Of a stretch of 42,530 nucleotides of DNA, positions 7,356 to 28,383 are shown piece by piece; position 1 is the first letter of the stretch; each line of letters begins with the position of its first letter. This stretch comes from Deltaproteobacteria bacterium. GTDB lineage: Bacteria; Myxococcota_A; Polyangia; JAAYKL01. The translations under genes and the position numbers were made by a program. The notes under the pieces are model-generated. The model had not been told where the DNA came from. It saw only the letters and a program-made list of their open reading frames with translations, and ran no database searches. The stretch is taken from contig JAKQNG010000247.1 in assembly GCA_029565915.1 (NCBI GenBank), positions 1 to 42,530 of the forward strand, written 5' to 3'.

Positions 7356-8573
7356 ATGAACGATAGACCTCAGATGGCAGAACCCCGCGCAACTTACCGC
7401 CTGCTCGCGATCATCCTCCTGCTGTCCCTCGTCGGCGCCGGACTGGCAGCGGAGCTGACGCGCATCCACTACAACACCCACACGAATCCCGAGTTCCATT
7501 CCATCTGCGCGATTTCCGAGGGCCTCAACTGCGAGGCGGTGGCCCTGTCCGCCTACTCGGTGCTGCTGGGGATTCCCGTGAGCATGTGGGGCCTCATCGG
7601 GTATTTCGCCATCCTGGTGGTGGGTGGCACGGCCATGGCGCGGCGCCGCAACGGGCAATGGGATTTGATCTTTCCCGTGGCCATCCTGTGCGCCATCGCG
7701 TTCATTTCCTCCGCCGTGCTGGCGGTGATTTCCTTTGCGCGCATCGATTCCCTGTGCCTGTTCTGCATGGGCACCTATGCGGTGAATGCGGCGCTCCTCG
7801 CGGTGGCCGTTCCGATGGTGCGGCGCACGGGCCGCGGCGCGATGCTGCTGGTCGACAACCTCCGGGCGCTCCTTGCCCGTCCCTTCTCCACCGCCGGACT
7901 GGCCCTCGCCTGTGCCCTGCCCATCCCTGCCGCCCGCTTCCTGGTGACGCCGTACTGGCAACTGACCGGCTGGGACGACATTTCGATTCTGGCCCACGGC
8001 ACCGGCGACAACGGGGTTCACTGGATGGGCGCCCGCCATCCGGCGGTCACGATCATGGAGTTCACCGACTACGAATGTCCCTACTGTCGCACAGCCCACC
8101 GGGCATTGCGCGCCCTGCTGGCCAAACACAAAGACCGGGTCCGCATCGTCCATCGCCATTTTCCCCTGGATGACGCCTGTAACCCGCGCATCAACAGGAA
8201 GTTCCATGAGAGGGCCTGCGAATTCTCGCTGGCCGTGGAGTGCGCCGCACAACAGGATCGGTTCTGGGAAATGAACGACGCCATCTTTTCGGCCCAGGAC
8301 CGGGTAAAGGCCCGGGATGTGGACCTGATGAAGTTCGCCCTGCAGCTGGGCCTGGACCGGAGCGACTTCGCGGAATGCCTGGAGCGCCGACTGACCTCGA
8401 AGGAAATTCAACGGGACATCCATGCGGCCAATGCCGCCGGCGTGCGCGCGACCCCTTCGTTTGACGTCCATGGACAACTGTTCACCGGTCGCCTGACCGA
8501 GGAACAGCTTGCGACGTTTCTGAAACCGGACAGCGGGAAGCCGTCCCGCCCCGCCGGAACTCCCCGCGACTGA
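7356..8573 (+). CDS. Vitamin K epoxide reductase (VKOR) domain fused to DsbA-like thioredoxin domain
   Basis: N-terminal VKOR (CAISEGLNCEAVALSAYSVLLGIPVSMWGLIGY.., SLCLFCMGTYAVN), C-terminal DsbA-like CPYC (MEFTDYECPYCRTAHRALRALL). Confidence 0.9.
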   Translation: MNDRPQMAEPRATYRLLAIILLLSLVGAGLAAELTRIHYNTHTNPEFHSICAISEGLNCEAVALSAYSVLLGIPVSMWGLIGYFAILVVGGTAMARRRNGQWDLIFPVAILCAIAFISSAVLAVISFARIDSLCLFCMGTYAVNAALLAVAVPMVRRTGRGAMLLVDNLRALLARPFSTAGLALACALPIPAARFLVTPYWQLTGWDDISILAHGTGDNGVHWMGARHPAVTIMEFTDYECPYCRTAHRALRALLAKHKDRVRIVHRHFPLDDACNPRINRKFHERACEFSLAVECAAQQDRFWEMNDAIFSAQDRVKARDVDLMKFALQLGLDRSDFAECLERRLTSKEIQRDIHAANAAGVRATPSFDVHGQLFTGRLTEEQLATFLKPDSGKPSRPAGTPRD

Positions 8574-9735
8574 CCAGCCACCAGGCCGCCAGATAAAAGC
8601 CGGCGGCCACGAGGAAGGGCACCCCCGTGAGCCATGGGTGGGACCCGTCCCGGATGCCCCGGGCGAACAGGTTCGTGTATACGAGAGGTCCCGCGATGGC
8701 GGTGAGGCTGGCGATGGACGCCAGGCTGCCCTGCAGCGCCCCCTGTGCATCCCCGGGCACCGTGCGGGACATGCGCGACTGCAGCACCGGGACCACCACC
8801 GCTGAAAACGCCGATACCGCCAGAATGGCATACAGATGCCAGCCCCGGGTGGCGAAGGCAATGGCCGCGCTGGTGGCCGAAGCGAGGAGCATCCCCGTCC
8901 GGAGCGTCCGTCCTTCCCCGAACCGGTTGACCAGTATGCGCGGCAGCACCCCCTGCCCCACTGCCGTGGCCAGTCCCATGAAGGCAAAGGAGGCGCCGAT
9001 GTCGAACGGCGTCCAGGCAAAGCGTTGTCCGGTGAAGAGCGCCCACATGCTGGAGGTGGCGCGTCCGGCGAGAAGGAGCAGCAGGTAGCACCAGAACAAC
9101 CGCGTGAGCGGCGATGGCAAAAACAGCGGACGCAGCGCAACGATGGGTGTCCAGCGGACGAGGGCCAGTGGCCGGCGGGAGGCGGCACCGGCGGATTCGG
9201 GCAACAGCACCAGCGCGGTCGCGAAGTTCAGCAGGTTCAGTCCCGCTGCCAGAAGAAACGGCAACGGGAGTCCGACCTCCGCCAGCGCGCCGCCAACGCC
9301 CGGTCCGGCCACGATGCCGACACCCAGGGCGGCTGCCACCAGGCCGAAGTTGCCCGGCCGGCTCCCTTCGTCGGAGATATCCGCCATGTACGCGAAGGCC
9401 GTGGCCGTACCGGCGCTGGTCAGGCCTGAGACGACGCGCCCGACGAACAGCAGCAGGAGGGACGGGGCAAAGGCCATCAGCAGGTAGTCGATGGCGGCGC
9501 CGGCCAGGGATGCGAGCAGGATCGGACGACGGCCGAAGCGGTCGGACAGGTTTCCGAGGGCGGGAGCGGCAACAAACTGGACGACCGCGTGGATGGCGAT
9601 GAAGCAGCCGAAGTAACGCGAGACAAACAACGGGTCGGCGTCGAAGCGGCGCAGGACGTCCGGCAGCACCGGAATGAGCAGGCCATAGCCGAGGGCATCG
9701 AAGAAGATCGTGCAGAGGATGAGCCGACGGGGCAT
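8482..9735 (-). CDS. MFS transporter, TetA-like drug efflux family
   Basis: MPRRLILCTIFFDALGYGLLIPVLPDVLRRF..., GNLSDRFGRRPILLASLAGAAIDYLLMAFAP; start refined from the 449-aa ORF to Met at 9735; convergent overlap with VKOR-DsbA gene. Confidence 0.88.
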   Translation of the reverse strand: MPRRLILCTIFFDALGYGLLIPVLPDVLRRFDADPLFVSRYFGCFIAIHAVVQFVAAPALGNLSDRFGRRPILLASLAGAAIDYLLMAFAPSLLLLFVGRVVSGLTSAGTATAFAYMADISDEGSRPGNFGLVAAALGVGIVAGPGVGGALAEVGLPLPFLLAAGLNLLNFATALVLLPESAGAASRRPLALVRWTPIVALRPLFLPSPLTRLFWCYLLLLLAGRATSSMWALFTGQRFAWTPFDIGASFAFMGLATAVGQGVLPRILVNRFGEGRTLRTGMLLASATSAAIAFATRGWHLYAILAVSAFSAVVVPVLQSRMSRTVPGDAQGALQGSLASIASLTAIAGPLVYTNLFARGIRDGSHPWLTGVPFLVAAGFYLAAWWLVSRGEFRRGGTASRCPVSETSQAVPRSGDR

Positions 9736-9746
9736 CGCCGACGGGC

Positions 9747-10661
9747 TCACGCAAAGGGTCGGAGCGCGTCGAGCATGCCGGGGACGTGAGCGGCCCACTC
9801 GTCTACCTCGGGCAACAGCGCCAGAACCCACACGACCCCCTGCAGCAGGCGCACCCGGTTGAATGCCTCCAGGGTTTTGGCGGACGGCGCCCCGGGATAG
9901 GCCGACAACATGCGGTTGTCGGGATCATTGGGGTTGGCGAGGTCCCAGGCGACGGGGCCGAGGCACGTGTCCTCGAAGTCGTTCCACAGATAGCCACGGG
10001 CCGACGCAATCAGGTTGTAGACGTGGGCGTCCCCGTGGAGAGGTTGCACGGGCAGAGTCCCGTCGACCACGGCGGGCAGCAGGCGGTCCGCCACCCGGTG
10101 CAGCATGGCGACATCGCCGGCCGGAATCACCTCCGGCATCCCTTCAAGGCGAGTCAGTCCGCGCGAAATGTCGTTGAGGGGTGGCGCGAGGAGCGGCAGC
10201 GCGCCCGGATATTCCCGCAGGGCCGCGTGGAGCTCCGCGAGCATCTTTCCGGCCACGTCGACGGATGGCGGCGCATCGGATACGGACGCCACATGGGACC
10301 AGAAGCTGATTGCGAAGCCGTCCTCCCGGTGAGGGCCCGCTGGCAGGAGATCGCTCGGCGGTACGACGGGAGCCCCGCGGCCGTGCAGGAACCGGGTCAC
10401 GTCGAGCTCCCGGGCCAGCCAGTCGTCGATGGGGTGCCGCAGCAGCGCGGTGAAGGTGCTGACACGGGCCACCAGCGGGGCCGGACGAAGATGGACGCGG
10501 ATCGCATAGCGCTCGGCGAGGACCACCGGTTCCGCCACCCGGATCCCATGGCGGTCCGCCACCCGGGTCGCGGCGGCGACCGCTCGGGCGGACACGGCAG
10601 CGCGGTCCGCGTCGGTGAGAGGCGAGGGTCTGTCGTAACAGGGCATTGATGCGGACGTCAT
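9747..10661 (-). CDS. Aminoglycoside/choline phosphotransferase (APH) family protein
   Basis: LHGDAHVYNLIASARGYLWNDFEDTCLGPVAWDLAN matches the APH catalytic and metal-binding motifs. Confidence 0.85.
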   Translation of the reverse strand: MTSASMPCYDRPSPLTDADRAAVSARAVAAATRVADRHGIRVAEPVVLAERYAIRVHLRPAPLVARVSTFTALLRHPIDDWLARELDVTRFLHGRGAPVVPPSDLLPAGPHREDGFAISFWSHVASVSDAPPSVDVAGKMLAELHAALREYPGALPLLAPPLNDISRGLTRLEGMPEVIPAGDVAMLHRVADRLLPAVVDGTLPVQPLHGDAHVYNLIASARGYLWNDFEDTCLGPVAWDLANPNDPDNRMLSAYPGAPSAKTLEAFNRVRLLQGVVWVLALLPEVDEWAAHVPGMLDALRPFA

Positions 10662-10673
10662 TTACGCGACTCC

Positions 10674-11270
10674 TTATTGACGTTTGCCGGCGGCATCCGC
10701 CGGGAGATCGAAGGCCTCGCCGGGAAACAGCAGCTGCAGCGCGGTGCGCAGGCGGGCCGCCACGAAATGCGACAGCTCTCCGTCGCGCTCCACCGCCCAT
10801 TGCATGGAAGCGCCCTGCATCACCGCCTGAAGGTGCCGCGCCACTTCCAGCCGGTCGGGCACCTGCGGGGGAAGGCGCCCGGCAATGGCCTCCCGGATCA
10901 GTTGCAACCCGCGTCCGGCCAGTTCGGCCAGGTGGGGATCGGACATTTCCTCGACCACCGTGAGGAGGTACTCGTTGATGCGCTCGCTTTTCAGCACCGA
11001 GACCAGCACCCGGAGAAAACGCCACAGCTCCTGAGGACCGGCACCGCCCGGCAGGGCCGCCAGCTCGGCGGGCAACCGATCCGTGTTCCGCTCCATCAAC
11101 CGGCGGAACAGGCCGGCCCGGTTTTCAAAGCGCTGAATCAGGGTGGACCGCGCCAGGCCCACCTCGGCGGCGACGTCGGCGAGGGTGAACTGCACGGGGC
11201 CCCGGCGCAGGATCACCCGTCGGGTCGCGTCCAGGATGGCATCGTCACTGAGGAGTCTGGGGCGTGGCAT
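10674..11270 (-). CDS. TetR family transcriptional regulator
   Basis: N-terminal HTH: ILDATRRVILRRGPVQFTLADVAAEVGLARSTLIQRFENRAGLFRRLM. Confidence 0.93.
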   Translation of the reverse strand: MPRPRLLSDDAILDATRRVILRRGPVQFTLADVAAEVGLARSTLIQRFENRAGLFRRLMERNTDRLPAELAALPGGAGPQELWRFLRVLVSVLKSERINEYLLTVVEEMSDPHLAELAGRGLQLIREAIAGRLPPQVPDRLEVARHLQAVMQGASMQWAVERDGELSHFVAARLRTALQLLFPGEAFDLPADAAGKRQ

Positions 11271-16736: not shown

Positions 16737-19136
16737 ATGACATTCTTAACCAGATGGACCAATTGGATCATCCTCGTCAGCGCCGTGTTCTCTGCCCTTG
16801 CCTGTTCGACAGATCCGGCCACCTCCGTGGCCGGTTCCGACGGCGACACGGACAGTGAACCCGTGGGCGACGGGGGCCAGGACAATTACAGTTACGAAAG
16901 CGGGGACGGTTCTTTCAACGAAGACGGGGTCTGGGAGCAGAATCAGGAATTCTGCTATCCACCCGACTTTCCGGCGGACAAGAGCTGCGAAGGCGAAGAA
17001 GGCCTCTTTGCGAAGGCCCTGCAGATGGCCCTGTGGTTCTTCAACGTCAACAAGTCCGGCGATGGCGTCTATTGCACCGACGTCCAGTGGCGCGGCAACG
17101 CCCATGCCAGCGATGCGCACATTCTGCTGGAGGCCGGCAATCCCAACGGCGTGGATATGTCCGCGAGTTACATCGAGCAGTACCGGACAGCGTTTGATCC
17201 GGACGGCAACGGCGAAGTGGACCTGTCGGGGGGCTACTACGACGCAGGCGATTTCATCAAATTCGCCCTCACGCAGGGGTACATGGCCTCCACCATCGCC
17301 TGGTCCATGTTTCTCTTTCCGGACGCATTTTCCCGCACGGCGCTGGAAGGCGAGGCCTTCGACCAGATTCGATGGGCGGCCGACTATTTCATGAAGTGCA
17401 CCTTCGTCGAGGATACCTCGCTTCCCGCCGGGGAGTGGAACGTGGTGGGCTATGCGCATCAGGTGGGAGACACCACGGACCACACCTGCGGCTGGATGCC
17501 TCCCGAGCTGCGCACGCCGGAGCTCTGCCCCCGCATGGGCTACTTCGCCACCCACGAGAATCCCGCCGCCGATGTAACGGCCAACAACGCCGCGGCCCTG
17601 GCCATCATTTCGCTGCTGACACAGGAAGAAGACCCGGCCTATTCGGAAAAATGCCGCAACTACGCGGTGGGACTCTACCGCTTTGCTGCGCAGTATCCCA
17701 CGTCCCTGGCCACGGCCGCCGGCGGGCTGTATGTGTCCGAGTACGCCTGGGACGATCTCGCGTGGGCCGCCGCCTGGCTGTACAAGGCCACCGGCGAAGA
17801 TGCCTATCTCGACGAGGCGGTGGACTGGATTCACCAGATTCCCGGTTTCCTCAGCAAGGACACAGTGGCCACCATGATCCAGTGGAATTCCTTCACGGAG
17901 GACAATCCCGGCTGGACGGAAAGCTGGACCCACGTGTGGAATTCCCTCCGGTCGGGGGTCTTCGTGCAGATGGCGGCGTTTACCCGCGAGGCAAACCATC
18001 CCTACCACTCCATGATGCAGATGATCGCCCGGGCGGACACCCTGGCCTGGGTGGATGGCCCTCATTCTCCCCAGGGCTTTGCCCACAAGGTGGACGTGAC
18101 CTGGGGGTCGGGACGCTACAACAGCGCCGGTCAGCTGGTGGCCCTCGCCTATGCAAAGAATTTTCCCACGGACCCGGACGCGGAGCGGATCATCGCCTGG
18201 GCAGCCACCCAGTCGCTCTATCTGCTCGGCGATAACGAGGTCAACGGCGATCCGGAGGGCAAATCGTTCATGATGGGCTTTACAGACATTTCTCCCAACA
18301 CCCCCACGGAACCCCATCACGCGGCGGGTCACGCGTCCATCTACGGCGAACCGGACAATCCACAGGAAAACCGCCACATCATCTGGGGCGCGCTGGTCAA
18401 CGGGCCCGCTCCGGACGACACGCACACGGATGAGCGGGGCGATTTCGGCGAAAACGAAGTGACCATCGACTACAACGCGGCCTGGGTGGGGGCCCTGGCG
18501 GGTAACACCTATTTCCAGAGCCGGGCATCGGGAAACTGGTGTCCGGATCCGGATTTTCCGCCCATCGAGCCGCCCATTGACGAATTCTACACCATGGCGA
18601 AAATCAACACGGCGGGCGCATGCCGCTCCCAGGTTGAAATCACCATGATGAACGAATCGATTCACCCACCCCGTTACAACGAATTCCTGACGGCCCGCTA
18701 CTACATCGACGTGACGGAGCTGGAGGCGGCCGGCGTCAGTCCCGCCACCATGACCGCCACCATCGCTTACGACAACGGCGCAGCGGAATTCGCAGAGCCC
18801 ACGCGCATTGAGGGACCGTTCCCCTGTGAGGACCAGGAATCCGAAGAGGCAAAAGACACCTGGTACTTTGTGCTGTCCTATGAAGGCTATGACTTCTGGG
18901 GACGGCAGGTGCGGCTGACGGGCCCCCGGACGACTCTGGTGGATTTCGGCGTACCGGACAGCGGCGACTGCGTGTGGGATCCGTCCGCGGACTGGAGCTA
19001 CGATGCGCTGACCACCGGAGATGCCCAGAAGACACCACACATCACCGCCTACGGTGAAAACGGAAAACTGCTGTGGGGCGAAGAGCCGCCCTGCCATCCC
19101 ATCCAGCACGTCATCGTGCCGGTGGTCATCGAATAG
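16737..19136 (+). CDS. Glycoside hydrolase family 9 (endoglucanase-like) lipoprotein
   Basis: Lipobox (FSALAC), acidic linker, GGYYDAGDFIKFALTQGYMASTIAWSMF (GH9 YDAGD catalytic motif), TIDYNAAWVGALAG near the C-terminal catalytic Glu region. Confidence 0.88.
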   Translation: MTFLTRWTNWIILVSAVFSALACSTDPATSVAGSDGDTDSEPVGDGGQDNYSYESGDGSFNEDGVWEQNQEFCYPPDFPADKSCEGEEGLFAKALQMALWFFNVNKSGDGVYCTDVQWRGNAHASDAHILLEAGNPNGVDMSASYIEQYRTAFDPDGNGEVDLSGGYYDAGDFIKFALTQGYMASTIAWSMFLFPDAFSRTALEGEAFDQIRWAADYFMKCTFVEDTSLPAGEWNVVGYAHQVGDTTDHTCGWMPPELRTPELCPRMGYFATHENPAADVTANNAAALAIISLLTQEEDPAYSEKCRNYAVGLYRFAAQYPTSLATAAGGLYVSEYAWDDLAWAAAWLYKATGEDAYLDEAVDWIHQIPGFLSKDTVATMIQWNSFTEDNPGWTESWTHVWNSLRSGVFVQMAAFTREANHPYHSMMQMIARADTLAWVDGPHSPQGFAHKVDVTWGSGRYNSAGQLVALAYAKNFPTDPDAERIIAWAATQSLYLLGDNEVNGDPEGKSFMMGFTDISPNTPTEPHHAAGHASIYGEPDNPQENRHIIWGALVNGPAPDDTHTDERGDFGENEVTIDYNAAWVGALAGNTYFQSRASGNWCPDPDFPPIEPPIDEFYTMAKINTAGACRSQVEITMMNESIHPPRYNEFLTARYYIDVTELEAAGVSPATMTATIAYDNGAAEFAEPTRIEGPFPCEDQESEEAKDTWYFVLSYEGYDFWGRQVRLTGPRTTLVDFGVPDSGDCVWDPSADWSYDALTTGDAQKTPHITAYGENGKLLWGEEPPCHPIQHVIVPVVIE

Positions 19137-19139
19137 CGG

Positions 19140-20663
19140 GTGCGCATGAAGTTTCATCATCTGTACTTCTTTTTCTGCTGGATGCTTCCGATCGCTGCCT
19201 GTTCCGTTACGCCGTCCACCTTTGACGAAGACACGAACCGGCTGAACCGGGACACGGACCGGGACTCCGACGGCATTCCCGACACGGACCTGCCGCCGGA
19301 CACGGAGACGGACAGGGATTCGGATGGTATTCCCGACACGGACCTGCCGCCGGACACGGACAGCGATGCGGACAGCGACACCGACGGCGACACCGACAGC
19401 GACAGCGAAACGGATTCGGAGCCCCTCTGGACAGCGCCTTCACCAAGGCAGCAGAATCTCGCGCAGTTCGCCATCGACTGCGACGAAGGAGACCTGACCA
19501 GCGATTGCCCGGACGGCGTGCCCAGCCCCTGCGTGCCCGACGATCCGAAAATCCTGTGCACCCTGTCCATTGTGGATGACGAAGGCATATCCATCTACGA
19601 CGGCAGCGTTGCCATCGAGCGGCGGGGACGGTCATCCATTCGATACTACAAACCCAACTACTCGCTGGAGCTGCGCCTGGCAGACGGGGTGACGGACAAT
19701 CCGGTTCCCTGCATGGGCATGGGCAAGGAAGCCGACTGGGTGCTGGACGGTTCCTGGATGGACCGTTCGTTCATGCGCAACGACCTGGTGTTCGATATCT
19801 ATCGCAGCCTCCAGGGCCTCCACTGGGCGCCGGAAACCCGCTACGGCGAACTCACATTCAACGGTGCCCACCACGGCATCTACCGGTTGGTGGAGCGCAT
19901 CAAGCGGGACGATGATCGGGTGGCCATCGACACGGATGACGGCAGCGGCACGCATTTCATCATCAAGCAGGACGAAGAAGGAAACCTGTACGACAGCATC
20001 GGCCTCGAGACCAACACCTGGCAGCACGTGTATCCCAAAGAGGACGCCGTGACATCCGGCCAGCACAGCGCCATCCAGGACTGGCTGTCCGACTTCAGCA
20101 GTGCGCTCCACGGGGGCGATGCCTTCGACTATCTGGATCTGGAAACCACCGTGGACTATGTGCTGCTGCAGGAATTCGCAAAAAACGTGGACGGGTTCAT
20201 GCTGAGCATTCACCTCTTCAAGGATGGCGATGGCCCGGCGTTTCTGGTGCCCTGGGACATCGACCTCGCCTTCGGGCAGCCCATTTTCGTATTTGATGCC
20301 ACCTACGCCGACAACGAAGAACCGGAGGGCTGGGCCCGGGAAACGAGTTTCAACGAAAACCTGAAGGATGTCCCCGCGTTTGCAGAGAGGATGGTCACGC
20401 GGTGGGCCGAGCTGCGACAGGGCCCGCTCAGCGACGAGTGGGTGAACCAGCGCATCGACGACTATCAACGGGTGCTCACCGACGACGCGATTGCGGCCAA
20501 CTTCAATGCGTTTCCCATCGAGGATGTGGATTTCTCCGTCATCTGGAACGCCTACACGCTGTATGACGTGACCAGCTACGCCGACGAGGTGGCCCATTTC
20601 CGTCAGTGGATTGCCGATCGGCTGGTGTGGATGGATGCCAACATCGCGTCCTACGCCCAATGA
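19140..20663 (+). CDS. CotH kinase family lipoprotein with Asp-rich linker
   Basis: Lipobox (LPIAAC); RRGRSSIRYYKPNYSLELR, YGELTFNGAHHGIYRLVERIKRDDDRV, VDYVLLQEFAKNVDGFMLSIHLFKDGDGPAFLVPWDIDLAFGQP are CotH motifs; GTG 19140 or ATG 19146 start. Confidence 0.88.
   Translation: MRMKFHHLYFFFCWMLPIAACSVTPSTFDEDTNRLNRDTDRDSDGIPDTDLPPDTETDRDSDGIPDTDLPPDTDSDADSDTDGDTDSDSETDSEPLWTAPSPRQQNLAQFAIDCDEGDLTSDCPDGVPSPCVPDDPKILCTLSIVDDEGISIYDGSVAIERRGRSSIRYYKPNYSLELRLADGVTDNPVPCMGMGKEADWVLDGSWMDRSFMRNDLVFDIYRSLQGLHWAPETRYGELTFNGAHHGIYRLVERIKRDDDRVAIDTDDGSGTHFIIKQDEEGNLYDSIGLETNTWQHVYPKEDAVTSGQHSAIQDWLSDFSSALHGGDAFDYLDLETTVDYVLLQEFAKNVDGFMLSIHLFKDGDGPAFLVPWDIDLAFGQPIFVFDATYADNEEPEGWARETSFNENLKDVPAFAERMVTRWAELRQGPLSDEWVNQRIDDYQRVLTDDAIAANFNAFPIEDVDFSVIWNAYTLYDVTSYADEVAHFRQWIADRLVWMDANIASYAQ
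19257..19364 (+). repeat. Two tandem 54-bp units in the CotH linker, encoding DRDSDGIPDTDLPPDTxx
   Basis: gaccgggactccgacggcattcccgacacggacctgccgccggacacg... followed by gacagggattcggatggtattcccgacacggacctgccgccggacacg... Confidence 0.85.
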
Positions 20664-21607
20664 ACGATTCTGTTCTTCTTTTGCAGCAGGAAATGCTGGT
20701 GAACCGCGTGCGCAAGAACCTGCGGCGGTTCCGGTCGTGGCTGACCCGCGAAAAAGTGACCTGCTACCGTCTGTACAATGCGGACATTCCCGAAATTCCC
20801 CTGCTCATCGACTGGTATGAAGGCGCCCTGCACGGGGCCCGCCTCCATCCCGACACCGACGATCCGGCCGCGGATGAACGGGGAACGGCCCTGCTCAATT
20901 ATCTGGCGCGCGAGCTCGGCGTGGCGGACGGAGACCTGTTTTTCAAAACCCGTCAACGGGGCGTGGGCGGAGCCCTGTATCCGGCCACGGACGCGGGACA
21001 CCACCTGCGCGAAGTGCGGGAGGGCGGCCACGTCTTCCGGGTGAATCTGTCCGATTACGTGGACACCGGGCTGTTTCTCGACCATCGACGGACGCGCCGG
21101 CTGGTCGCGCAGGAAGCAAAGAACAAACGGTTTCTCAACCTGTTCGGCTACACAGGCGCATTTTCTGTCTATGCTGCAGGTGGTGGGGCCAGAACCACCA
21201 CGACGGTGGATCTCTCCAACACGTACCTGCACGTGGCGCAGACAAACATGGAGCGCAACGGCTTTACGGGATTCAACCACCATTTCGTGCGGCAGGATGT
21301 CCTGTCACTGCTCGACGAAGGGGGCATCAGGGAAAAATTCGATCTGGTGGTGTTCGATCCGCCCACGGTCTCAAAAAGCAGTGCCATGAAACGCAGCCTG
21401 GTCATCCAGCGGGATCACGCCGCAATGCTGAACGCGATTTTCGAATCGGTTGCCAAAGGCGGCGTGGTGTACTTCTCCACCAACTTCAGGGATTTTCGCC
21501 TGTCGCGGGACATCCGCGCCGGCCGCATCGAGGAAATCACCTCACGGACGGTGCCGCCGGATTTCGCGAACCGGCGTCCCCACCGTTGCTGGCGCATGGA
21601 AAAATAG
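20660..21607 (+). CDS. Class I SAM-dependent methyltransferase, similar to the RlmK half of RlmKL (23S rRNA)
   Basis: FLNLFGYTGAFSVYAAGGGARTTTTVDLSNTYL, FDLVVFDPPTVSKSSAMKRSLVIQRDHAAMLNAIF, VVYFSTNFRDFRLS; ATGA overlap with cotH-like gene. Confidence 0.87.
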   Translation: MNDSVLLLQQEMLVNRVRKNLRRFRSWLTREKVTCYRLYNADIPEIPLLIDWYEGALHGARLHPDTDDPAADERGTALLNYLARELGVADGDLFFKTRQRGVGGALYPATDAGHHLREVREGGHVFRVNLSDYVDTGLFLDHRRTRRLVAQEAKNKRFLNLFGYTGAFSVYAAGGGARTTTTVDLSNTYLHVAQTNMERNGFTGFNHHFVRQDVLSLLDEGGIREKFDLVVFDPPTVSKSSAMKRSLVIQRDHAAMLNAIFESVAKGGVVYFSTNFRDFRLSRDIRAGRIEEITSRTVPPDFANRRPHRCWRMEK

Positions 21608-24031
21608 GCTGCGGTCCACCTCCGCCTCCGGGTGGGCGACGAAGTACAGATATCCGGCAAACAGCTTTTCCGGAATGATCTGATAGAGAACAGGCAGAGG
21701 AAGTCCCTCACCGCGGAAGGCGTCCATCCCCGCGATGTAGTGCAACCGTGGACGGTCCAGAGTCTGAATGCCTGCGAAGGAAAACAGCGCCCGTATGGCG
21801 TCCCTGCTCCAGACCTGCCGTCGCAGAAGGGCGTCCATGGACGCGATGCCCACATCGGCCAGAGATCGGCGCAGATCGCCATTGCTGTCAAACAGGCGTT
21901 GCGCGGCGGCAAGGCGGTCCGCATCAATTGTTCTACTGGTGGCCATGAACAGCAGGTCGCCGCTCTCCCCGTAGAATACGTTGACGTCGGCGAAGGAGCG
22001 AACAAGGGTGTTGGCAATCATTCCCACAGCCTCCGGACTGGAGGTGTAGATGTGCGCCCATTGAAGAAAGACGCCGTCCTCTGACATGTGTTGCTGCGCA
22101 AGGGCGTAAAACTCGCGGGTATAGAGCATGTCCACGCCGGTGACCCATGGATTGCTGGGCTCGGAGATGATGATGTCCCACGTTCCTTTTCCCCGTCCGA
22201 TGACCCGGAATGCGTCGCCCCGGTGGATGTGCAGGCGCGGATCGTTCGCCACACGCCGGTTCGCGGATGCAAAGAGCGGCAGCGCTTCTTCGACCTCGAA
22301 GGATATCTCGGCCACATCAATGGACTGCACGTCGTCGTACAGGGTCATCTCGCCGGCCGTGACGCCGGTACCGAGTCCGATAATGGCAACCCTGTGCCTC
22401 CTTTCTGCAAACAGGCCGGGGAGGTGTGCCAGCAGGGTGAGTGTGCGGCGATCATGCCGGACATCCGAGTCAGCCTTGCCGTTGACAAAAATGCCCCGCT
22501 CCAGCTGGTTTCCCCTGGTGCCGACCACCGCTACGGAACCTTCGGGGCCGTCCCGGTGATAGAGGATTTCCCGGCCCTTCAGCAGATGCGCATGCAGCGT
22601 TGCCGGAGAATCGTGGCTGAAGGATATCGCTCGCTGGAAGCGGAACAGGCCGATGGCAAAGCGGTCCCGGGCAAACCCCGGTTGCAGGACAAGGAGCGTC
22701 AGTGCGGCAAAAAGGCCCGCAGCGGCAAGGTAACGGTACCGGCGTGACAGCAATCGGGCAGCGACAAGGGCGGTGAATGCCGCCAGAACAACGGCGGTCA
22801 GATAAACACGGGGGCTGTCGGCTGCGTGGTAGATGGCGATGCCGCCCAGCAGGCTTCCCAGGAGGCAGCCCAGGGTATTGACGGACAGCAGCACTCCCGA
22901 TTGTCGACCAACGGTGTTGAGGTTGCGTTTCAGCAGATGAAAGGCAATGGGCAGGGCGGCCCCTGACAGGAGCAGCGGCAGAGCGAGGACGCACGTCAGC
23001 GCAGCGAAGATCAGGGCGTGATGCAGGGCGAAGTCGGTGGTTCCCGAACCCGTGAGGATGCGGATTCGATGGGCCGCGGCAGGCCAGAGGTCAAGGGTGA
23101 AGTACAGTGCCGCAAGAGCGATGGCAAACAGCAGCTGGTTCCAGAAGAGGGTCGACGGGCCGATCCGCCCCAGGCGGCTGACGATGGCGCTGCCGGCGGC
23201 GATGGCAAACAGAAAGACCGACAGCACCAGTGAGAAGGAATAGGAGGAACTCCCCAGGGACAGGGCACCGATACGGAAAAGAACATTTTCAAGGGTCATC
23301 ACCGAAAAACCGCCCAGAAAACCTACGGCGTAGATGGGGAACGCCGGAAGAGGCGCGGCTGAAAGAGCCTGCTCGGGCGTGGATGCGTCAGCGGACCCGG
23401 CGGTCCCGGGTGCGGACGCGAGAATGGCAAAAAACAGGGCCGCCGTGAGATTCACAGCACTGGCGGACATGACCGTAAGGGGCAGTCCGAGAACGGGAAT
23501 GAGCACAAAACCCGTGATCAGGGCACCTCCGCAGGCGCCCGCCGTATTGACCGCGTAAAGTCTCGCATGGATCCGGGTCGCCGCGTTGACATCCACCGAC
23601 AGGCTCCTCGTGAGCAGGGGAATCGTGGCGCCCATGCAGACCGTTGGCACCAGCATGAGAAGCGCGGCACATCCCGTTCCTTCGATCAGCATCCACAGGG
23701 GTGGTGCGAAACTCCAGCCTGCTGTCCAGGCCCGGCAGCCGTCGAAGATCAGGGGAAACAGGGCGCACCACACACCGATAATCGCTTCGAGCAGCGCGTA
23801 CAGTTTCATGGGATTACCGGCACGGACACTGTGGCGGCCGATCAGCAGATATCCGAGGGAGAGTCCTCCGAGAAACACGCCGATGACGACGGCGGTGGCG
23901 GAGGTGTCGCTGCCCAGCAGGCGGGCCAGGTACTTCTGCCAGGTGATCTCATAGACCAGTCCCGTGAATCCGGTACCGAACACGAACAGGAAGATGGCGA
24001 ACCGGCGCAGGTGCGGTGGCACCCGCTTCAT
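21542..24031 (-). CDS. Polytopic membrane protein fused to spermidine-synthase-like domain (fused MFS/SpeE type)
   Basis: FVFGTGFTGLVYEITWQKYLARLLGSDTSATAVVIGVFLGGLSLGY N-terminus; VAIIGLGTGVTAGEMTLYDDVQSIDVAEIS.. and WDIIISEPSNPWVTGVDMLYTREFYALAQQHMSEDGVFLQW. Confidence 0.87.
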   Translation of the reverse strand: MKRVPPHLRRFAIFLFVFGTGFTGLVYEITWQKYLARLLGSDTSATAVVIGVFLGGLSLGYLLIGRHSVRAGNPMKLYALLEAIIGVWCALFPLIFDGCRAWTAGWSFAPPLWMLIEGTGCAALLMLVPTVCMGATIPLLTRSLSVDVNAATRIHARLYAVNTAGACGGALITGFVLIPVLGLPLTVMSASAVNLTAALFFAILASAPGTAGSADASTPEQALSAAPLPAFPIYAVGFLGGFSVMTLENVLFRIGALSLGSSSYSFSLVLSVFLFAIAAGSAIVSRLGRIGPSTLFWNQLLFAIALAALYFTLDLWPAAAHRIRILTGSGTTDFALHHALIFAALTCVLALPLLLSGAALPIAFHLLKRNLNTVGRQSGVLLSVNTLGCLLGSLLGGIAIYHAADSPRVYLTAVVLAAFTALVAARLLSRRYRYLAAAGLFAALTLLVLQPGFARDRFAIGLFRFQRAISFSHDSPATLHAHLLKGREILYHRDGPEGSVAVVGTRGNQLERGIFVNGKADSDVRHDRRTLTLLAHLPGLFAERRHRVAIIGLGTGVTAGEMTLYDDVQSIDVAEISFEVEEALPLFASANRRVANDPRLHIHRGDAFRVIGRGKGTWDIIISEPSNPWVTGVDMLYTREFYALAQQHMSEDGVFLQWAHIYTSSPEAVGMIANTLVRSFADVNVFYGESGDLLFMATSRTIDADRLAAAQRLFDSNGDLRRSLADVGIASMDALLRRQVWSRDAIRALFSFAGIQTLDRPRLHYIAGMDAFRGEGLPLPVLYQIIPEKLFAGYLYFVAHPEAEVDRSLFFHAPATVGTPVREIRRHRP

Positions 24032-24294
24032 GATGCGGGGTTTGCCACGGCAGCGATCAACTGTTCCCGTCCGGCCTTCGACAGGGTGTGGAGCCGGACA
24101 TGCAGCACAAAGGCGTCGCCCGATTTCTGCAGGGACGTCACCTTTCCGTGAACGGCCGCATCGCCGACCTGAAAACAGATCCTTGCCCCCGGTGGCCTGG
24201 GCGATGCCGTACGGACCGTGGCCATATCCCCTTCCACGGCCAGTAACCCGTCAATGGAAAGGGGCTGTTCGTGGGCATTGCGATCCATCGTCAC
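24028..24294 (-). CDS. Small PilZ-like domain protein
   Basis: 88 aa; beta-rich region with KVTSLQKSGDAFVLHVRLHTLSKAGREQLIAAV; 4-bp overlaps with both neighbours; family assignment tentative. Confidence 0.5.
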   Translation of the reverse strand: MTMDRNAHEQPLSIDGLLAVEGDMATVRTASPRPPGARICFQVGDAAVHGKVTSLQKSGDAFVLHVRLHTLSKAGREQLIAAVANPAS

Positions 24295-24761
24295 GACCTC
24301 TCGAGGATGCTCCGCATTTCGCGTCGCTCCTGATCCTCGCGGATTTCCCGCCGGTTGTCGTGGATCTTCCGACCCTTTGCGAGGGCCAGCGTCACCTTGA
24401 CCCGCCCGTCCTTGAAATGCAGGTCCAGGGGCACCAGCGTGTAACCCCGCTCGTTCACCTTCACGCGGAGCTTGTCGATTTCGGCCCGGTGCAGCAGCAA
24501 GCGGCGCGGGCGTTTGGCCTCGTGGTTGAAATGGTGGGCCTGGGGCCAGGGCGAAATATCGAGATGCATGAGAAAAACGTCGTTGTTTTCGATGACGGCG
24601 TAGGCATCCGACATGTTCACCCGCCGGTCCCGCACGGACTTGACTTCCGATCCCGCCAGGGCAATGCCGGCCTCCCAGGTTGCCTCAATATCGTAGTTGT
24701 GCCGGGCACGACGGTTTTCGCAGATGATGTCCGGATCGCGCTTCGATTTTTTTGCCGCCAT
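24291..24761 (-). CDS. smpB: SsrA-binding protein SmpB
   Basis: ENRRARHNYDIEATWEAGIALAGSEVKSVRDRRVNMSDAYAVIENNDVFLMHLDISPW..., LALAKGRKIHDNR. Confidence 0.96.
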   Translation of the reverse strand: MAAKKSKRDPDIICENRRARHNYDIEATWEAGIALAGSEVKSVRDRRVNMSDAYAVIENNDVFLMHLDISPWPQAHHFNHEAKRPRRLLLHRAEIDKLRVKVNERGYTLVPLDLHFKDGRVKVTLALAKGRKIHDNRREIREDQERREMRSILERS

Positions 24762-24857: not shown

Positions 24858-26528
24858 ATGAACCGTATTCCCATTCTTATCGTTTCTGCGGCCCTGTCTT
24901 TCGTTTTGTCCTGCAACGGATCGCCCGCCGTGGAGCTCTATGCGGTGCACCGGGTGCTGCCCGACGTCATTGAGCCCGGAGACTCCCTGCGCATCGAAGG
25001 AGACGGCTTCGTTGAAGGGCCTGCGACAGTCCGGCTGAAGGGCGTTTTCAAATCCGCGGGACCCGGACAGGGTCGCTACCGGGAGGTGACCCTGTCGGGC
25101 AAGGCCCTGTCGGATTCCCGCATCGATGTGCCGGTGCCACCCGGGGTGATGGATCGCGTGACCCGGGAAGAAGTGGTGTTCCATGGGGTGGCGGAGGTGT
25201 CGTTTCCCGGCACCTTCGAAGGCGGTGTCGTATCGCTGGAAGCCCGCAGCGACATGCTGCGGTTGCAAATCCGCCCCGCCGGCGGCGGCGTCAGAACCCA
25301 CGCGTCGAGGGTGAAAGAATCGCGGAATCTGCTGGCAACCATGGGCGTCCAGATTGATCCGGACCGTTTCGAAGAAGGCATCGTCGCCGTGGCGGTAAAG
25401 CCCGGTACACCCGCTGCCGAAGCGGACATCCGCGCTGGTGACCGGTTGATCTCCGTGGATGGTTTTCCCCTCGTGTCGGCGGCGGAGCTGGCGGGCCTGG
25501 ACTCGGGAGCAGACCACATCTTTGAATTCATGTCTCCTTCGGGACAGACCGTGTTGCTGAAAGGTTCTTCCGGCGCGGGCACGATTTACGGGCGGGATGA
25601 ACTCCTCGCCGTGGTGCTCACGGCCACCGTGGTGGGCCTGTTTCTCTCACTGCTTCTGCCGGGCCTGCGGCGACGGCGGTGGACGGGCGGCGGTGTCACC
25701 CATCCCGTGCTCAGGATGGCGGGCATCGCCATGGCGGCTGCCCTGTCGCTGCTGACGCCGGCACTGGTCATCGCGTTTCAGCTCGAAGTGTCTGCGGCTC
25801 TCTTCCTGTTCGGAATGTACCTCGGGTGTTCGGTTGTTCTCCAGGTATACGGCGAAGGGCCCATGGCCAGCCGTCTGTCCAGCGGGCTCTCCGGCGCGGC
25901 CGTCCTCGGTGCTGTGATGCTGTCGGGCGCCGCTGCGGAGGGCGGCATCGGCGTGTGCAGCATCACTCTTTCCCAGGGAGCCACCGGCATGGGCCTTCAT
26001 GCCTTCGACAACCCGCTGACCACTCTCGCCCTTCTCCTGTCCGTGTCCTTCCTGTGGCCCTCCAGCTCTCTGCAGCGGGCCGATTCCCCGCTGACAACCC
26101 TTGTGTCGTGGATCATGGCAACCGTTGCCAGCATGATTGTCGTGTTCTTCGCTCTCGGCGGCTGGCTCGTGCCCGGTGTCGTCCATCCGGATCTGCCGGC
26201 AGGTTCCCTGTCCACCGTTGCGGCGGCGACCGTATTCGCCCTCAAAACGGGGGCGGTGCTGGCTGCGGCGAGATTCCTCTGCGGTGCAGAGCAGCAGGAT
26301 CGTCGCGACAGACAGAGGCGACCCGTTCCCCTGCGCTTCCTTCTGCTGCTGGTGCTGATGGCCGGCGGCATGCTGCTGGAGTGGGCAATGGTACCGTCGA
26401 GTCTGCGGTTTGCCGGACAGGTCTTCTCGGTCGGCATTTTCTTTGCACTGCCGGCCATGCTGCTCGGCGCCGCGCTGTCATTTCCGCGCAACCGGAAAGA
26501 AGTTTTAACCGGGGAACGTTCGATCTGA
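24858..26528 (+). CDS. Lipoprotein-signal protein with TIG-like and PDZ domains fused to a NuoH-like (complex I subunit 1-like) membrane domain
   Basis: Lipobox (LSFVLSC); PDZ (IVAVAVKPGTPAAEADIRAGDRLISVDGFPLVSAAELAGL); then 8 or so TMs with NuoH-like order of motifs (ALFLFGMYLGCSVVLQVYGEGPMASRLSSGLSGAAVLGAVML; MIVVFFALGGW; VFALKTGAVLAAARF). Start refined to ATG 24858. Confidence 0.6.
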   Translation: MNRIPILIVSAALSFVLSCNGSPAVELYAVHRVLPDVIEPGDSLRIEGDGFVEGPATVRLKGVFKSAGPGQGRYREVTLSGKALSDSRIDVPVPPGVMDRVTREEVVFHGVAEVSFPGTFEGGVVSLEARSDMLRLQIRPAGGGVRTHASRVKESRNLLATMGVQIDPDRFEEGIVAVAVKPGTPAAEADIRAGDRLISVDGFPLVSAAELAGLDSGADHIFEFMSPSGQTVLLKGSSGAGTIYGRDELLAVVLTATVVGLFLSLLLPGLRRRRWTGGGVTHPVLRMAGIAMAAALSLLTPALVIAFQLEVSAALFLFGMYLGCSVVLQVYGEGPMASRLSSGLSGAAVLGAVMLSGAAAEGGIGVCSITLSQGATGMGLHAFDNPLTTLALLLSVSFLWPSSSLQRADSPLTTLVSWIMATVASMIVVFFALGGWLVPGVVHPDLPAGSLSTVAAATVFALKTGAVLAAARFLCGAEQQDRRDRQRRPVPLRFLLLLVLMAGGMLLEWAMVPSSLRFAGQVFSVGIFFALPAMLLGAALSFPRNRKEVLTGERSI

Positions 26529-26541
26529 AAAAAGGAGAGGT

Positions 26542-28383
26542 CTACTTGCCGGTCATACGGGCGCGGACGCGGCCGATGAAGGCTTCGAGATCGCGGGCGC
26601 GATCGGCGTAGGTGGAAGTGCCGGCAAACCTGGCATACACGTCCTTGATGCGCTCTTCGAGCTTGGGGCTGCCCTTCGGCAGCAGCAGATCGAGCGCGCG
26701 GATGGAGGCGGAGAGGGCCACCTTGGACGGATTGTGCAGATTGGCCAGCAACGCCTCCACCACCGCATCCGTCTTGCCCTTGTCATCCCGGCCGAGGCGG
26801 TACAGGGTCAGAATGGCGCGCTCCACATTCTTGCTGGTGTGCTTGCCGACTTCCTTGACGTAGCAGTCCAGTTTGTCCGCGCACTCGGTTCCGAACTTGA
26901 TGCGCTCCTTGTAGCCCTCAATGCGCTTGATCATCACCTGACACTCGTTGCGGGCCTGCTTCTCTTCGTCCTCGGAGGCTTCGCCCTGGAAACGGTCCTT
27001 GATGATCTTGTCGCAATCGATTGCCTTGATGGCCTTGTCCATCGGCTTGTAGAATTCTTCACCGCACATGAGGGCCGCGTTGTAGAACAGCTTATCGCGC
27101 AGGGAGTCGTCGGCGCCGGCAATGGCTTTCTTCATGACGGCGCAGGCCTTGTCGGGAACGGCGAGCATGCCCATGGCGCGGAAGTATCCGACGGCCTCTT
27201 CAAGGGGCGTTTCCACCTTGTCGCCGTTGAATTTGATGCGATTGACCAGTTCGTCCATGATGTCGACCTGGCCGATTTCGGCCAGCGCCACGGCTGCCCA
27301 GTTCCTTCGCATCACCGCCCATTCCTCGGGGGTTTCAAACTGGACCTGCAGCTCCAGGCTCTGGGTCTTCCTGTCCAGGTCATCCGCTTCGAGGTGGTTG
27401 AATTCGGATTTCAGGAACTCCACAACGGCCGGAGACGGATAGCTCATCATGCCGAGGAAGGTGCTGGCCTGCTGAATGAACCACAGGGGGTTCTTCATCA
27501 ACGGATCTTCCTGCAGTTCCTGTGCATAGGCCTTATTGAACGCCTCGTCCTGACCTTTGGCGAAAGCGAGGATGCCCTTCACCACCGCATCCCGATCATG
27601 AATCTGCTGCAGCGCCGCAAACGCGATGGTGCCGAGGGCGATGGGCTGACGGACGCCCTTCTGGGCAATGCCGCGGATCAGCACCGGCACCGCTGCGGCA
27701 TCACCGATTTTACCGAGGGCCTTCATGGCCTTCATGTTGAGCCGGAGTTCCTGAATCGTGTCGGGCGCATCCGTAATCTCGATCAGCGCCTGCACCACAT
27801 CCTTCCTGAGCGAGGTGTCCGGATGCTCCACCACAATGATGGACGAGGCCGAAATGAACGACTGGACAATCTGGTTTTCATCATTCGTGAACGGTGCACC
27901 CTGACGTCCCGCGCGGGCGTTCTTGGCCATCTCCCAGCCCTTCAGGAGCTTGGGAAGGGCAGCTTCCACCTTCTGGCGCTGTACCGCATTGGCGGCCACG
28001 AGGAACATGGCCGCTTCCGTGGTTTTTTCCATGGTCAGGGCCTCCAGAAATACTGGAATCGCCCGGGGATCGTTCATCTGGGCCAGCAGTTCAATGATGA
28101 CCTTCCGATTGGCCGGATCCCGGTCGAAATCCATGAAAGCCTTGCTGAGTCCGGGCACGAGCACGTCGGTCACTTCCTTTACCGCCGGGTTCTGCAGGTC
28201 GTTCTTGTTTTCCTGCATGACCGTAGAAAAGATGTCACTGATGTTTTTCAGGGCCTGCTCCCGCCAGGGCCGGTCATAGAGCAAATCAATGTTGTCCTGC
28301 GGATCCTTTTCATCGCGGCATGCGGTGAGGAGAACAGACAGCGACAGCGCTGCCAGCAGTAAAAGAGTGGAGATGCGCTTCAT
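26542..28383 (-). CDS. HEAT-repeat-containing lipoprotein
   Basis: Lipobox (VLLTAC); repeated alpha-helical units such as PRAIPVFLEALTMEKTTEAAMFLVAANAV and MKALGKIGDAAAVPVLIRGIAQ. Confidence 0.8.
   Translation of the reverse strand: MKRISTLLLLAALSLSVLLTACRDEKDPQDNIDLLYDRPWREQALKNISDIFSTVMQENKNDLQNPAVKEVTDVLVPGLSKAFMDFDRDPANRKVIIELLAQMNDPRAIPVFLEALTMEKTTEAAMFLVAANAVQRQKVEAALPKLLKGWEMAKNARAGRQGAPFTNDENQIVQSFISASSIIVVEHPDTSLRKDVVQALIEITDAPDTIQELRLNMKAMKALGKIGDAAAVPVLIRGIAQKGVRQPIALGTIAFAALQQIHDRDAVVKGILAFAKGQDEAFNKAYAQELQEDPLMKNPLWFIQQASTFLGMMSYPSPAVVEFLKSEFNHLEADDLDRKTQSLELQVQFETPEEWAVMRRNWAAVALAEIGQVDIMDELVNRIKFNGDKVETPLEEAVGYFRAMGMLAVPDKACAVMKKAIAGADDSLRDKLFYNAALMCGEEFYKPMDKAIKAIDCDKIIKDRFQGEASEDEEKQARNECQVMIKRIEGYKERIKFGTECADKLDCYVKEVGKHTSKNVERAILTLYRLGRDDKGKTDAVVEALLANLHNPSKVALSASIRALDLLLPKGSPKLEERIKDVYARFAGTSTYADRARDLEAFIGRVRARMTGK

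Follow-up and report, generated by a model that had tools for sequence, protein, structure and literature searches.

The subunits of complex I are, by the textbook, obligate parts of a machine, and a gene that appears to carry one of them outside any complex I operon raises the question of where it came from and what it now does. Such a gene lies at positions 24858-26528 (+) of a 42,530-nucleotide stretch, called here the window (contig JAKQNG010000247.1 of assembly GCA_029565915.1), from a Deltaproteobacteria bacterium classified in Myxococcota_A; Polyangia; JAAYKL01. The original prediction for this locus was a lipobox, a TIG-like region and a PDZ domain followed by a polytopic region that resembles NuoH, complex I subunit 1, with its quinone-site segments missing. 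The gene almost certainly descends from NuoH, and its product very likely has no complex I function. The explanation of the whole that is judged probable is that the protein is an orphaned, functionally retired NuoH that now acts as an inner-membrane TIG-PDZ adaptor.

Architecture of the protein

The open reading frame begins with an ATG at 24858 and ends with a stop codon at 26526-26528 (556 codons plus stop); it is apparently a single-gene unit. Its parts, with the transmembrane (TM) helices numbered in order, and the evidence for each are:

24858-26528 (+): coding sequence, 556 residues, lipoprotein - TIG-like - PDZ - NuoH-derived membrane protein; open reading frame and homologues in 14 of 14 family f1 genomes
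24858-24914 (+): signal peptide with lipobox Cys19; sequence and conservation of the cysteine
24936-25277 (+): TIG/IPT-like beta domain, residues 27-140; strands of the predicted model, match to the NFAT1 C-terminal Rel-homology domain (8r3f), homology to the arm of operonic TIG-NuoH proteins
25332-25568 (+): PDZ domain, residues 159-237; Pfam, and DegQ/DegP structures in Foldseek
25587-26525 (+): NuoH-derived membrane domain, nine predicted TM helices, residues 244-556; profile, fold, tree and residue comparisons
25974-26015 (+): retained periplasmic TM4-TM5 element Q373...P386 (NuoH "DIVxxQ...W...P"); in f1, Q in 9/10 and P in 10/10
26055-26099 (+): cytoplasmic remnant of the NuoH quinone site/E-loop, WPSSSLQRADSPLTT, replacing AExNRxPFDLPEAESEL...EYSG; residues kept in 0-1/10 of f1
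26157-26165 (+): GGW motif, residues 434-436, kept where TM6 reaches the periplasm; in f1, first G in 9/10 and W in 10/10
26244-26246 (+): retained TM7 lysine K463; in 9/10 of f1 and in all canonical NuoH proteins sampled

The window protein belongs to family f1, and it is not a chance reading frame, because a homologue was found in every one of the 14 f1 genomes sampled (in two genomes it is divided between contig ends). Its signal peptide ends at Cys19 (FVLS-C), a cysteine shared by all 26 full-length homologues aligned and, in the residue-table alignment, at the lipobox column of all orphan and f1 members (10/10 for f1); with this invariant lipobox cysteine the protein reads as a bacterial lipoprotein, and lipidation is predicted. 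The TIG-like region is beta-rich in the predicted model and is matched in Foldseek by the NFAT1 domain (TM-score 0.58 on the target), which has an IPT/TIG-type fold; the best sequence match to Pfam TIG (PF01833), E 0.037 in the homologue L003, is below threshold. Three Pfam PDZ models match the window protein above their gathering cut-offs (PDZ_6 6e-8, PDZ 2.6e-6 and PDZ_2 2.8e-6). A positive-inside pattern (RRRR after TM1, DRRDRQRR after TM7) places the TIG-PDZ arm outside, in the periplasm. A periplasmic PDZ domain is shared with the HtrA/Deg, CtpA and site-2 protease proteins, some of them membrane anchored; only the PDZ portions of those models match the window protein, and Pfam and NCBIfam scans found no peptidase domain in it. 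PDZ-only matches in other genomes were set aside on their translations as HtrA-like (L018, L021, L022), carboxypeptidase-like repeats (L019), thioredoxin-like (L020) or RseP-like (L026).

Descent of the membrane domain from NuoH

Kinship with NuoH, proposed at first from motif order, is now established by profile, fold and family comparisons. The f1 profile (A5, 13 sequences) aligned in hhalign with the canonical NuoH proteins of related genomes at 95.7% probability and E 1e-8 over 161 columns, which take in DIVxxQ...P, GGWxxP and the TM7 K...RW region and leave a gap at the E-loop. Compared with all PDB chains, the same profile found three chloroplast NdhA sequences (7.6e-5, 0.0023 and 0.0071) and nothing else below 0.01, and the f11/f22 profile (A6) found complex I subunit 1 proteins only, among them E. 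coli NuoH (7nyh, 1.5e-19) and Thermus Nqo8 (4he8_H, 1.8e-12). Since PDZ matches to DegQ/DegP dominate a full-length Foldseek search, the membrane domain was modelled and compared on its own; the model (pLDDT 82, pTM 0.82) had complex I subunit 1 proteins at all of ranks 1-37, ahead of the first unrelated protein, with probabilities of 0.92-1.00, so that the structural comparison agrees with the original prediction at modest TM-scores. The relatives L075 and L078, of the same architecture and each with a PDZ domain, match the NuoH family PF00146 directly at 2.6e-29 and 4.8e-26, and PF00146 is matched also by L071 and L072. At E 0.001 the membrane-domain profile has matches in 63 of 193 genomes of the class, a count that includes true NuoH proteins.

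With NuoH, Nqo8 and NdhA (PF00146) the window protein shares the membrane bundle, the motif order, the periplasmic DIVxxQ...P, FLGGWxxP and the TM7 lysine; it differs from them in the loss of GPNRVGP, RSAAQ..SYE, AExNRxPFDLPEAESEL, EYSG, the AEY glutamate and RxDQ, in the added lipid-anchored N-terminal TIG-PDZ arm, and in its place outside a nuo operon. Subunits of the HyfC/EchB type belong to the same PF00146 superfamily and sit in hydrogenase/antiporter-type clusters; Hyf/Ech-type NuoH was considered as the nearest kin and ruled out, as the f1 profile showed no similarity to Hyf-type NuoH-like proteins in hhalign.

From operonic subunit to eroded orphan

A search of related genomes for the same PDZ-NuoH fusion, as the original prediction had proposed, uncovered operonic, unlinked and eroded forms that make up a graded series. 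At the first stage, L117 (genome G021) encodes nuoA-C-D-(lipobox-TIG-PDZ-NuoH)-I-J-K-L, adjacent and on one strand, with every NuoH motif present. Nine more genomes of the class have TIG(-PDZ)-NuoH adjoining nuo genes (L134-L138, L140-L143), and the operonic TIG-PDZ-NuoH typically lies between nuoD and nuoI. These proteins have the lipobox, TIG, PDZ and NuoH parts in the same order as the window protein, with an aligned cysteine in 8/10, whereas their NuoH part is intact and encoded among nuo genes and their PDZ domain often carries an EF-hand-like insert. The fusion was therefore formed while the subunit still worked in complex I, and the window protein is its eroded orphan. The insert, DLDGDGVLTRHE, was found inside the PDZ domain of L117:3280-5376 (-), where it matches Pfam EF-hand_6 at E 0.0037, below the cut-off, and similar inserts are seen by eye in L134, L135, L136, L137 and L140; they suggest that calcium may modulate the periplasmic arm linked to complex I.

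Other arrangements of the arm also occur. L139, L144 and L151 are NuoH proteins with a TIG-only arm. Other classes of the phylum have a signal peptide-TIG-NuoH protein with neither PDZ nor lipobox, followed by nuoI (L111, L112, L113 and L116), an arrangement that may be an earlier stage of the fusion, as well as NuoH proteins with no arm (L114, L115).

At the second stage the fusion is intact and unlinked. In G177 and G146 (f11) it stands at separate loci (L145, L156) and matches PF00146 at about 1e-112, and the nuoA-B-C-D cluster of each genome ends at nuoD without nuoH (L154 for G177; L155 for G146, 8349-11218 (-)); G125 and G162 have intact copies (L159, L160) with no adjoining nuo gene on the stretch read. 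Partly eroded NuoH domains (L121, L122, L128, L130, L157, L075 and L078) make up the third stage, and the fourth, eroded, takes in the rest of f11 together with f22, f14, f5, f25 and f1, including the window protein. The N-terminal arms are homologous across stages, as judged by profile comparison: the f1 arm aligns in hhalign with the arm of the unlinked intact proteins at E 2.1e-25, with the operonic TIG-PDZ arm at 7.7e-21 and with the TIG-only arm at 7.7e-10.

A tree of the NuoH domain (66 rows, 303 columns, LG+C20 PMSF) places all unlinked and orphan forms in one clade with support of 100/100, in agreement with a simpler model (100). The intact unlinked forms stand at the base of this clade, f1 is a single clade within it (100/99), and branches are several-fold to tenfold longer after erosion of the NuoH domain.

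Loss of the cognate complex I

The eroded orphans are independent of complex I genes. The cognate NuoD was searched for in 46 genomes, mostly incomplete assemblies, so that single absences are weak and the weight lies on a pattern repeated over dozens of genomes. Each of the four genomes whose NuoH is intact and unlinked has it (74-100% identity), as do two operonic genomes (67-70%); it was not found in 24 eroded-orphan genomes or in any of the 14 f1 genomes, where the best matches, at 26-53%, are of standard or Hyf type. Two exceptions, G026 and G042, have a NuoD of 60% identity, but with a separate NuoH-like match just downstream on the same contig, so that the orphan would not be needed there. 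Neither PF00146 nor PF00346 had a member in six of 13 f1 genomes checked (G001, G002, G005, G009, G010 and G012), and much of family f1 seems to lack complex I.

Residues lost and residues kept

The quinone-site segments are missing, as the original prediction had it, and the loss goes well beyond them. Each of GPNR, LAD...K, KED, RSAAQ, the SYE glutamate, AExNR, PFD, PEAE, SEL, EYSG, the AEW glutamate and RxD is kept in only 0-1/10 of the f1 proteins; the canonical, operonic and unlinked intact proteins keep the same quinone and coupling motifs almost without exception. The further suggestion that R(L/S)xSG..GA is the counterpart of GALRSAAQ is possible, although the alignment does not settle the match residue by residue. 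What f1 retains is the Q of DIVxxQ (9/10), the following P (10/10), GGW (9-10/10) and the TM7 lysine (9/10). Standard NuoH topology puts the retained loop motifs on the periplasmic side and the lost ones mainly in the cytoplasm or within the membrane. By mean conservation, the weakest parts of the f1 proteins are the cytoplasmic 5-6 loop (0.28), the C-terminal tail (0.30) and the 1-2 loop, also cytoplasmic (0.34). The SYE glutamate, counted from the alignment, corresponds to Glu157 of E. coli NuoH, which is described as an invariant residue beside the quinone cavity, a cavity that NuoH forms together with NuoB and NuoD (PMC8357420).

Among close relatives in the orphan families (seven pairs with finite dS), the ratio of nonsynonymous to synonymous substitution rates (dN/dS) lies between 0.07 and 0.30 when the whole protein is counted and between 0.09 and 0.25 in the membrane part; both halves are therefore under purifying selection. 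L012 (G007) is the most eroded f1 member, having lost both GGW glycines and the periplasmic Q as well, so that erosion may still be under way.

Proposed history and competing explanations

The ancestor was a complex I NuoH whose N-terminus was extended by a periplasmic lipoprotein-TIG-PDZ module, as the operonic homologues show. According to the series, the tree, the residue comparison and dN/dS, the nuoH gene then became unlinked from its operon, the cognate nuo genes were lost, and the NuoH domain shed its quinone site, the E-channel glutamates and the NuoB/NuoD interface, while the lipid anchor, TIG, PDZ and periplasmic side of the bundle were kept by purifying selection. The window protein would be expected neither to bind quinone in the manner of complex I nor to pump protons. 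Its TIG-PDZ arm may be held on the periplasmic side by the NuoH-derived bundle together with the lipid anchor, and the PDZ domain could there bind a client protein by its C-terminus or by an exposed strand, for instance during the assembly of the envelope or its quality control; that such a PDZ-client adaptor role is the selected function is judged about as likely as not.

Several observations count against this account. In direct hmmscan the window protein has no match to PF00146 in Pfam even at E 10, a result that by itself goes against the original prediction, and the membrane part has no NuoH match in NCBIfam either; the Foldseek TM-scores to NuoH are modest (0.25-0.45, with E-values of 0.005-0.06). 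Branching within the orphan clade is unsure, with long branches. Some members match PDZ only weakly (E 0.063 in L066), and peptide binding is therefore perhaps not universal. The genes that repeatedly adjoin the orphan, coaD and rsmD in six other f1 genomes and a mannose-1-phosphate guanylyltransferase-like gene (manC) in four f11/f22 genomes (all named from readings of translations), are uninformative as to function. Finally, the membrane domain keeps specific residues that would be superfluous in a pure anchor. The missing PF00146 match and the modest TM-scores are what would speak for a polytopic region unrelated to NuoH, alike in its motifs by convergence. This is hardly conceivable, however, and the missing match does not refute descent, because intermediates of the same four-part architecture match PF00146 at 1e-26 to 1e-29 and intact ones at 1e-112, and because the profile-profile comparison and the PDB profile and fold searches all lead to complex I subunit 1. 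The stepwise disappearance of NuoH motifs and the long branches could likewise indicate a decaying relic without function, but the length of the reading frame is nearly constant across the family genomes and many genomes of the class, the lipobox, TIG, PDZ and GGW positions are conserved, and close pairs, with the low dN/dS values given above, show neither ratios near 1 nor frequent disruption; this reading is very improbable.

Somewhat less improbable, though still unlikely, is that the protein still serves a different redox or antiporter complex of the cell, either as an additional subunit or as a factor in its assembly. The operonic ancestor belonged to such a complex, and contig 99 of the source genome carries the only cluster of this kind there, a Hyf/Mrp-like one (PF00146 and PF00346 with one member each, PF00361 with two). 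Yet the orphan is kept in the six f1 genomes in which PF00146 and PF00346 were not found, the cytoplasmic loops expected to meet NuoB/NuoD-like subunits are among its least conserved parts, and Hyf-type proteins lack profile similarity to it. A more serious competitor, though clearly the less favoured, is that the NuoH-derived bundle has a new activity of its own (ion leak, lipid or quinol binding, or sensing) that the TIG-PDZ arm gates or reports. Q373, P386, GGW 434-436, K463, R472 and RR 482-483 persist in the bundle, the membrane part has a dN/dS as low as that of the arm, and the five-helix repeat known from antiporter subunits also occurs in NuoH (PMC8357420). On the NuoH path known for protons and quinone, however, every charged residue tested has been lost, and no acidic residue is conserved in the TM helices except D247 at the start of TM1. 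This alternative stays in contention because of the specific residues in the bundle; a retired NuoH serving as a TIG-PDZ adaptor is the explanation preferred.

Neighbouring genes

The neighbours named in the original prediction were recovered, and no nuo gene is found within the window:

24291-24761 (-): smpB, divergent upstream neighbour; NCBIfam PRK05422, 1.5e-57
26542-28383 (-): HEAT-repeat lipoprotein, convergent downstream neighbour; Pfam HEAT_2, 8e-11

Elsewhere in the window, 21542-24031 (-) encodes an 829-residue fused polytopic/spermidine-synthase protein (NCBIfam MFS_SpdSyn 3e-20, Pfam Spermine_synth 4e-14), and 20606-21607 (+) a 333-residue protein that corresponds to the C-terminal (RlmK) part only of the RlmKL methyltransferase model (NCBIfam 2e-98, positions 393-701). 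At 16737-20663 (+) a GH9 glycoside hydrolase reading frame (16737-19136) adjoins one for a CotH kinase (19140-20663), an unusual pairing.

Implications

No description of a PDZ-NuoH fusion was found in the literature on NuoH with PDZ or on complex I in myxobacteria, most subscription papers lying outside the coverage. The family presents a complex I subunit kept after its machine is gone, with the operonic, unlinked intact, partly eroded and fully eroded steps visible in living genomes, and would be a clear case of the repurposing of a bioenergetic subunit. It also uncovers a variant of complex I in which NuoH bears a TIG-PDZ arm on the periplasmic face, usually with a lipobox, and raises the question of the docking partner of such an arm-bearing complex. 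On balance it is somewhat favoured that a complex I core subunit with a lipoprotein-TIG-PDZ arm has outlived its complex across a bacterial class and become a free-standing envelope adaptor or sensor, and that the operonic forms represent a second kind of complex I, which would engage a periplasmic partner through the PDZ domain of its NuoH.
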